A DNA stretch of 40,285 bases from Rhodococcus sp. IEGM 1379. Lineage in GTDB: Bacteria; Actinomycetota; Actinomycetes; Mycobacteriales; Mycobacteriaceae. The first letter of the stretch is position 1. Each line of letters starts with the position of its first letter. This document shows, piece by piece, positions 37,504 through 38,930 of this stretch. The notes beneath the pieces were generated by a model that worked only from the letters and a program-made list of their open reading frames with translations, had not been told where the DNA came from and made no database searches. The DNA is taken from NCBI RefSeq assembly GCF_030056815.1, contig NZ_JASHKR010000034.1:1-40285 (forward strand). Direction: 5' to 3'. Both the position numbers and the translations under genes were made by a program.

Positions 37504-37632
37504 CGTGAACCTCACTTCGCTAAAGAAAACCAGTGGTACCGCGTCGTCGGAACACCCGATCGACCTGCCAATGGAACCACACCCACGAGGGCGTGAAAGA
37601 ATGATGCGAAAGAAACAGAAGGGAGACCAATC

Positions 37633-37707
37633 ATGGGTAAGCGCGGTCGTAAGAAGCGTAGCCGTAAGGGCAACAAAGCAAACCATGGCAAGCGTCCAAA
37701 CGCCTGA
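37633..37707 (+). CDS. 24-residue large-subunit ribosomal protein bL37
   Basis: A 24-codon gene, MGKRGRKKRSRKGN at the N-terminus and KANHGKRPNA at the C-terminus, with AGGGAG 8 nt before the ATG. The composition (more than a third Lys/Arg, ending in KANHGKRPNA) matches bL37, the tiny actinobacterial ribosomal protein first seen in mycobacterial ribosome structures; recalled, not searched. It should be an unstructured rRNA-binding peptide of the 50S subunit. It is divergent from the biotinyl-protein gene (129-bp gap) and is closed by a perfect 21-bp hairpin. The gene is too short for usual length cut-offs. Confidence 0.9.
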   Translation: MGKRGRKKRSRKGNKANHGKRPNA

Positions 37708-37797: not shown

Positions 37798-38079
37798 CTA
37801 ATTGTCTGTTTTGGTACTCGTTATGACGATGGTGCGCCGCAACTCGATGGTGAGCCGCTGACGCAGGCTTTCCGGTGCGTGGTCACCGCCGCACTTGCGG
37901 CTGATCAAGCTCTTGACCTTCTCCTCGATCCCGTAGGCCGCGAGGCAGGATCCGCAATCGTCGATGTGCCGCTGCAGACGCGCCCGACTGGCGTCGTCGC
38001 ACTCACCGTCGAGCATCAACCACACGTCAGCGATAACCGCCGAGCAGTCGAGCCGTTCGAATTCGTCCTGCGTGCTCAT
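37798..38079 (-). CDS. rshA: Zinc-associated anti-sigma factor RshA/RsrA
   Basis: 93 residues with the ZAS motif H38-x3-C42-x2-C45 ([13 protein letters not shown]) plus upstream cysteines C12 and C27 and C63. Under reducing conditions zinc-bound RshA/RsrA holds SigH; disulfide stress forms a disulfide, expels zinc and frees the sigma factor. The ATG overlaps the sigH stop as ATGA, giving coupled synthesis with its target. It ends 29 bp before a strong bidirectional hairpin. The motif and the neighbour make the assignment firm. Confidence 0.93.
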
Positions 38080-38774
38080 CGAGTGACACCTTCCGCCTCG
38101 GCAGCAGCATCCGTGCTTGTGACACTGGTGCCGCCGCGGTTGAATCCGCGTTCCTTCGCGACATCTGCGAGCAATCCGCGCAACTGCTTCCGCCCACGAT
38201 GCAGCCGTGACATCACCGTTCCGATCGGTGTGCCCATGATCTCTGCGATTTCCTTGTACGGGAATCCTTCGACATCTGCGTAGTACACCGCCATCCGGAA
38301 TTCTTCGGGAAGTGCCTGCAGTGCCGCTTTGATGTCGTCGTCGGGAAGCGCGTCGAGAGCCTCGACCTCGGCCGAACGCAGCCCTGTGGAGGTGTGCTCC
38401 GCCGTGGCCGCCAACTGCCAGTCGGTGATTTCGTCGGTCGGATACTGCGCCGGCTGACGCTGCTTCTTCCGGTACGAGTTGATGTAGGTATTGGTGAGAA
38501 TCCGGTACAGCCACGCCTTGAGGTTGGTTCCGTCGCGGAACGAACGAAAAGCGGTGTACGCCTTGACGTATGTCTCCTGAACCAGATCCTCGGCATCAGC
38601 AGGATTGCGCGTCATGCGCAACGCAGCACCGTACAGCTGATCAAGCAGAGGCAATGCGTCGCGCTCGAAACGCGCGATCAACTCGTCCTGGCTTTCGGGC
38701 GTTTCGGATACCGCAGCGTCAGAAGGTTCGCTGACCTCTGGCTGTTCATCCTTGGGCCGGTCGTGTTCCAGCAC
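38076..38774 (-). CDS. sigH: ECF sigma factor SigH (thiol-oxidative stress), short form
   Basis: 232 residues from GTG 38774. Region 2: [37 protein letters not shown] and [28 protein letters not shown]. Region 4: [52 protein letters not shown]. The sequence is close to mycobacterial SigH and Streptomyces SigR, which direct thioredoxin, mycothiol and protein-quality genes from GGAAC/GTT promoters. AAGGGA lies about 7 nt before GTG 38774. The same frame continues 30 codons upstream to a second GTG (38864) that also has its own ribosome-binding site, so two products are possible. The gene is co-translated with rshA. Confidence 0.93.
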
Positions 38775-38864
38775 TCTGATCCCTTCGCTCGCCGTAGGGA
38801 TCAAGGTTACCGCCAACACAAGTTCCGACCTATGGGCCGGTAGTGGCTCCTGCACAGCCAGCAC
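38775..38864 (-). other. In-frame N-terminal extension of SigH (candidate long isoform SigH')
   Basis: Thirty codons join GTG 38864 to the SigH start at 38774. GTG 38864 is preceded by AAGGAG (38870-38875) with a 5-nt gap, a better site than that of the short form. The encoded segment ([17 protein letters not shown], then [13 protein letters not shown]) has no recognised domain. In Streptomyces coelicolor a longer, unstable SigR' made from a SigR-driven promoter gives feedback control; this arrangement looks similar. Isoform use is inference. Confidence 0.5.
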
Positions 38865-38900
38865 GGTCGCTCCTTCGATAGTTCACGGTGATCAACCAGT

Positions 38901-38930
38901 ACCAACACAGCTCGTCCCGACTCTGTTCCC
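38901..38930 (-). promoter_or_regulatory. SigH-type autoregulatory promoter
   Basis: On the minus strand, -35 GGGAAC (38925-38930) and -10 GTTGGT (38901-38906) are 18 bp apart, matching the SigH/SigR consensus (sGGAAC, N17-22, sGTTs). Transcription would start near 38893, about 30 nt before the long-form GTG at 38864, leaving just enough leader for its ribosome-binding site. Confidence 0.7.

Follow-up and report, generated by a model that had tools for sequence, protein, structure and literature searches.

The sigH gene of Rhodococcus sp. IEGM 1379 has two in-frame start codons with a second, -10-like element embedded between them, and this combination is, as far as the sequences of relatives can tell, a real and conserved feature. 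The arrangement corresponds to that of the SigR'/SigR pair of Streptomyces, and it is likely that Rhodococcus sigH runs the same circuit: the layout of promoters and start codons is well supported by sequence comparison, and the degradation of the long form is proposed by analogy. In the window, i.e., the whole stretch of 40,285 nucleotides that was analyzed, the gene lies on the reverse strand. The long form of SigH (262 amino acids; 38076..38864) begins at a GTG at 38864 (GTG1) and the short form (232 amino acids; 38076..38774) at a GTG at 38774 (GTG2), which lies 90 nt further in the same frame. Each is preceded by a Shine-Dalgarno (SD) sequence, GAAGGAG for the long form (SD1, 38870..38876) and GAAGGG for the short form (SD2, 38781..38786), both recognized from the sequence. 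These starts and their SDs had been listed in the initial annotation of this DNA with coordinates that prove correct. As an in-frame TGA (38883..38885) bounds the open frame of 268 amino acids, a sigH start earlier than GTG1 is excluded in the window. The upstream start would thus provide the short form with an N-terminal extension of 30 codons (38775..38864), in whose coding DNA both the -10-like element and SD2 are embedded. The protein belongs to the SigH/SigR family of ECF sigma factors with a score above the curated TIGR02947 cut-off (375.6 versus 251.55 bits). The start of rshA, a zinc anti-sigma factor gene directly downstream (37798..38079, reverse strand; TIGR03988, 105.9 bits with a cut-off of 62.5), overlaps the sigH stop. 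The operon is flanked on one side by a pdtaS-like gene and a whiB-like gene on the opposite strand, and on the other by a divergent ybaK-like gene. A tiny open reading frame, MGKRGRKKRSRKGNKANHGKRPNA, is found on the forward strand at approximately 37632-37706, convergent with sigH-rshA; its product is presumably akin to the small ribosomal protein bL37.

Among 109 related loci, GAAGGG occurs 2-14 nt 5' of an in-frame ATG or GTG in 90. The short start is a GTG in all 59 distinct loci of the Rhodococcus/Nocardia type, a count that was restricted to loci starting with ATG or GTG and for which GAAGGG was a selection criterion, as it was for the Val codon count in the same 59 loci and for the frame test in 79 scored loci, both given below. 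Note that the locus collections overlap (e.g., L007/L058, L008/L059 and L028/L093) and that identical stretches were dropped only from the counts of distinct loci.

A predicted SigR-type autoregulatory promoter, p2, precedes the long start. It reads GGGAAC-N18-GTTGGT (38901..38930, reverse strand, with GGGAAC at 38930-38925 and GTTGGT at 38906-38901), and the usual spacing would place its transcript start near 38893-38896, with a leader of about 30 nt. The 6.14 Mb genome holds 92 matches to GGGAAY-N18-GTT on both strands, compared to 18 for the reversed control, which brings the expectation of a chance match in a given 150 nt of one strand to about 0.1%. The p2 match thus exceeds chance occurrence at the sequence level, in agreement with the initial annotation, which had put this promoter at the same position with a predicted start some 30 nt before GTG1. 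Its reading of p2 as a promoter placed only for the long form has to be abandoned, since the predicted p2 transcript spans both starts. GGAAY-N18/19-GTT is located no more than 480 nt upstream of the sigH core in all 75 anchored loci from outside Mycobacterium and in 15 of the 34 from Mycobacterium. For R. erythropolis, passages in PMC10012870, citing another study, state that sigH can be transcribed by RNA polymerase with either sigma-E or sigma-H, and that GGAAC is present in the four sigma-H promoters analyzed in that species. Some of the GGGAAY-N18-GTT matches in the genome precede genes that are expected under SigH from other actinobacteria, for instance a sigE-like gene (NF007229, 373.2 versus 265 bits) and trxB (TIGR01292, 407.9 versus 343.45 bits), which is followed by a thioredoxin gene. 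Another match lies just 5' of a second clpB-like gene (L202; G000:C201 near 113787, reverse strand, product beginning MPAFFGPEGPG), a piece of 651 residues that scores 827.7 bits for the ClpB family, below the full-length cut-off of that family. A contig-cut clpB gene elsewhere has two GGAAY-N18/19-GTT sites upstream. The examined flanks of two clpP pairs and of a clpC-like gene contain no SigH-type promoter on the right strand.

The second candidate promoter, which the initial annotation had overlooked, is situated between the two starts. The element CGGTAACCT (38804..38812, reverse strand), with TAACCT at 38809-38804 as a conserved TAnnnT, lies about 30 nt 5' of the short start and within the extension. 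It probably serves as the promoter (p1) for the short form, with a transcript start predicted near 38797. TAnnnT is present in all 56 distinct extensions from outside Mycobacterium, and seven other A/T hexamers occur in only 5-16 of them. Its distance to the short start is constant in 59 of the 62 Rhodococcus/Nocardia-type loci; it is also present in the Gordonia (n = 4) and Williamsia (n = 4) loci that were scored, at differing distances. Of the 59 distinct loci from Rhodococcus, Nocardia and near kin, 57 encode Val at the p1 site and all 57 use GTA, a codon that makes up 19 of the 783 Val codons (2.4%) of the sigH core. The residue that follows does vary (T in 25, D in 18 and A in 13 of the 59). 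At the level of the class, 47 loci were scored with an automatic choice of the long start that is wrong in some of them (some sequences were also read by eye): TAnnnT is found inside the extension in 30, before the start in eight (one having both) and in neither place in 10. In five loci of the same class (L156, L159, L163, L164 and L166), a p1-like TAGACT stands 5 nt before GTGATG, so that the mRNA for their short form may be leaderless.

The closest known counterpart is the sigR-rsrA operon of Streptomyces coelicolor, which likewise pairs an ECF sigma factor with a downstream zinc anti-sigma factor. The order of elements is also the same, with a SigR-type p2, a long start, a p1 -10 element within the extension, an SD sequence and a short start. 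Three loci that we take to be Streptomyces-like (L153, L161 and L165) show p2, ATG, TATCCT, AGGAGGTG and GTC in this order, with GTT instead of GTC in L165. In Streptomyces, according to passages in PMC4921905 and PMC5472188, p1 gives rise to the stable SigR and p2 to SigR', which has a half-life of about 10 min and is broken down by Clp proteases that themselves belong to the regulon. The two operons differ in the length of the extension, which comprises 30 residues in Rhodococcus and is given as 55 residues in the relevant part of PMC4921905 and as 58 in that of PMC5472188. The short start is GTC in Streptomyces and GTG in Rhodococcus, GTC being a Streptomyces trait that the circuit does not need; the instability of the long form and the control by WblC are Streptomyces features as well. 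The analogy with SigR'/SigR, first drawn in the initial annotation, is borne out at the level of the layout, and it is stronger than was then apparent, owing to the matching p1-like element and its conservation. Transferred to Rhodococcus, the circuit would operate as follows. In unstressed cells, a housekeeping-type p1 would start a short transcript carrying only SD2 and GTG2, and the short SigH made from it would be kept inactive by RshA. Upon thiol stress, RshA would release SigH, which would then fire p2. The p2 mRNA, carrying SD1 and GTG1, would yield the long SigH with its tail of 30 residues, and probably also some short form from SD2. If the tail renders the long form short-lived as it does in Streptomyces, the resulting burst would be self-limiting.

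The extension itself is constrained as DNA and hardly as protein. The pN/pS ratio was determined for six picked loci from the clade of the window and for eight picked loci from a second clade, which we take to be R. opacus/jostii-like. It amounts to 0.92 and 0.69, respectively, in the extension; the corresponding values of the sigH core are 0.03 and 0.04. At the same time, synonymous sites evolve slowly, with a pS of 0.093 and 0.133 in the extension versus 0.385 and 0.427 in the core. Taken together, slow synonymous sites and these ratios place the constraint at the DNA level rather than the protein level, and residue-level constraint is weak. An alignment of synonymous sites had been suggested as a check on the extension: these sites are indeed slower than in the core, and the ratios do not extend this to a constraint on the protein. 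Upstream of p1, pN/pS is 2.6 in the clade of the window and 0.71 in the R. opacus/jostii-like clade, both values being based on few codons. In the latter clade, pS falls from 0.227 upstream of p1 to 0.044 in the last 13 codons, a pattern as expected, and the clade of the window shows 0.061 and 0.135 for the same two parts. The p1 -10 element and SD2 hence explain part of the DNA-level constraint and not all of it, as the clade of the window is slow beyond them. Purifying selection on the residues at the conserved end of the extension (LAVTL.PTA.EGI) was considered and rejected, as the letters track CGGTAnnnT and GAAGGG while the residues change.

These data bear on an alternative in which both forms are made and the extension is a by-product of having p1 and SD2 in a translated leader, i.e., not a degradation signal, so that translation of the leader would mainly couple or tune the synthesis of the short form. 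Both the weak residue constraint and the explanation of the conserved end by CGGTAnnnT and GAAGGG are in line with it. So is the predicted accessibility of SD2, which is higher in the p1 than in the p2 mRNA in 10 loci, equal in one and lower in one, for 12 loci picked from the 70 in which both starts were scored, a comparison confounded by transcript length. Masking of SD2 by a fold in the p2 mRNA was considered on the same 12 loci, and this weak, length-confounded trend was not relied on. One argument against the by-product explanation comes from the N-terminal part. Within residues 5-13, an [ED]RP motif recurs in 31 of the 87 distinct extensions, compared to a mean of 0.43 and a maximum of three in 500 shuffles; it is found, for example, in Nocardia (11 of 15) and Mycobacterium (13 of 33). 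Moreover, the extension does destabilize the protein in Streptomyces, according to a passage in PMC5472188. On balance, we consider it unlikely that the extension is merely such a by-product. The motif is absent from the 14 distinct loci of the window's own genus sample and from the three Williamsia loci, which argues against a strict requirement; two of six other loci titled Rhodococcus do carry it. The description of the extension as unrelated to others, made before relatives were compared, is therefore to be qualified: the motif recurs across genera, with the genus sample of the window as an exception, and the remainder of the extension varies freely. Residue 5 of the extension (38852-38850) is a Gln in the window and in L002, an Arg in L003 and a Cys in L004-L010. 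A Cys close to the N-terminus of the long protein seems to have disappeared in the closest relatives.

As for the element between the starts, its consensus contains more than a plain -10 element needs. In the 55 distinct aligned sites, the three bases before the TA (38812-38810 in the window) are nearly fixed as CGG (C in 55, G in 52 and G in 54); the search imposed the TA, the T and a C or G directly before the TA, and left the two bases preceding that position free. Another protein may read the p1 site. It could even be that CGGTAnnnT is not a -10 element at all and represents another conserved DNA site within the coding extension, such as the operator of a regulator. In favor of an operator, apart from the near-fixed CGG, is that no -35 element is visible for p1 in the 55 distinct aligned loci, and that neither a -35 nor a WhiB7-like AT-rich stretch stood out there when both were considered as candidates. 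Actinobacterial promoters without a visible -35 element are not unusual, however, and both the TAnnnT form and the spacing from SD2 fit a -10 element of actinobacteria. In addition, the two starts of Streptomyces are separated by a known promoter, sigRp1, and in the above-mentioned loci with TAGACT, presumably from Micromonosporaceae, the spacing of 5 nt between the element and GTGATG is that of a leaderless promoter. An operator in place of a promoter is thus improbable in our view, and p1 remains the preferred reading of the element.

Whether the long start is used can be approached through the reading frame. For each locus, the region from p2 to the short start was searched for the start with the best SD sequence in any frame. 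This start shares the sigH frame in 76 of the 79 scored loci, where chance predicts one third, and the in-frame extensions have 23 different lengths ranging from 57 to 186 nt. The remaining 30 of the 109 loci were not scored, comprising 19 Mycobacterium loci without a strict p2, seven loci without GAAGGG near a start and four without a scorable start; one further locus (L105) lacks the anchor and falls outside the 109. The three out-of-frame loci (L099, L104 and L124) are from Mycobacterium, and the stretch tested in them omitted their SD-bearing start. In a refined test of Mycobacterium, all 32 scored loci are in frame and one of the 33 distinct loci is unscored for lack of GAAGGG; being centered on a chosen start, this test is less independent than that of the 79 loci. 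The initial annotation had named a frameshift or stop in relatives as the finding that would speak against the extension, and no stop is found between the two starts in any of the 76 in-frame loci. One alternative frame contains a stop in 72 of these 76 loci and the other in only 28, leaving it open in 48, so that openness by itself is weak evidence. It is the maintenance of the frame that indicates that the extension is probably translated. That only the short form is made, with GTG1 unused and the open extension a GC-rich accident, would fit the frequently open alternative frame and the weak residue constraint, but the in-frame counts across so many lengths and in the refined Mycobacterium test make it highly improbable.

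The sigH-rshA locus of Mycobacterium shares several of these elements with that of Rhodococcus and arranges one of them differently. With its fifth base relaxed, a SigH-type p2 lies no more than 200 nt from the long start in 33 of 34 loci; the long start has an SD sequence, and a GAAGGG site lies within the extension in 32 of 33 distinct loci. The long starts were set here by a purine-rich motif combined with a length window, and by hand in L103 and L114. In contrast to Rhodococcus and Nocardia, in which TAnnnT lies inside the extension, the element precedes the long start. It is located 19-25 nt 5' of the long start in all 34 Mycobacterium loci and within the extension in only one of them; in other genera, TAnnnT occurs at -18 to -35 of the long start in one of 70 loci. 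All 33 distinct Mycobacterium loci have TAnnnT in the stretch before the long start, and other A/T hexamers occur there in 0-13 of them. The element overlaps the SD region of the long start. If the element acts as the -10 of p1 at -19 to -25, transcription would be expected to begin within the long-form SD sequence or directly behind it. Assuming 6 nt between the -10 element and the transcript start, the predicted pairing of that SD is weaker by over 3 kcal in 29 of the 34 loci. A tentative reading, which we hold to be possible rather than probable, is that p1 has moved beyond the long start in Mycobacterium and that promoter choice still picks the isoform by cutting off the long-form SD. In that case, the p2 mRNA would yield long SigH, and the p1 mRNA would yield short SigH from the internal GAAGGG. 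A TAGATT- or TAGGAT-like element directly before the SD of the long start was noted in the Mycobacterium loci among L096-L137, and also in L142-L147 and L149 (by eye in L143). An unstable isoform was reportedly described in M. smegmatis as well by Kim in 2009, in a paper with 'in actinomycetes' in its title.

For M. tuberculosis, a passage in PMC4921905 gives two S1-mapped promoters for sigH, the downstream sigHp1 and the upstream SigH-type sigHp2. A contrasting account is found in a passage of PMC3489674, in which the gene is apparently only autoregulated. Corynebacterium glutamicum has an orthologous sigma/anti-sigma operon and differs in its promoters: according to the part of PMC3489674 concerned, four housekeeping promoters serve sigH, and a SigH-type promoter serves rshA only.

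The literature searched, with most subscription journals outside reach, contained no description of a long SigH isoform of Rhodococcus. At the sequence level, the Rhodococcus case adds to the already known SigR'/SigR kind. It carries the pairing of promoters and starts known from Streptomyces over to Rhodococcus, Nocardia, Gordonia and Williamsia, offers a concrete candidate for p1 and indicates exact start codons for the annotation of SigH. The conserved end of the extension can be understood as coding DNA that also holds a promoter-like element and a ribosome site. The contrast with Mycobacterium may be the part that is new to specialists, as the two genera offer a clean evolutionary comparison in which the same two starts are retained and promoter and start would have been either uncoupled or re-coupled by another device.
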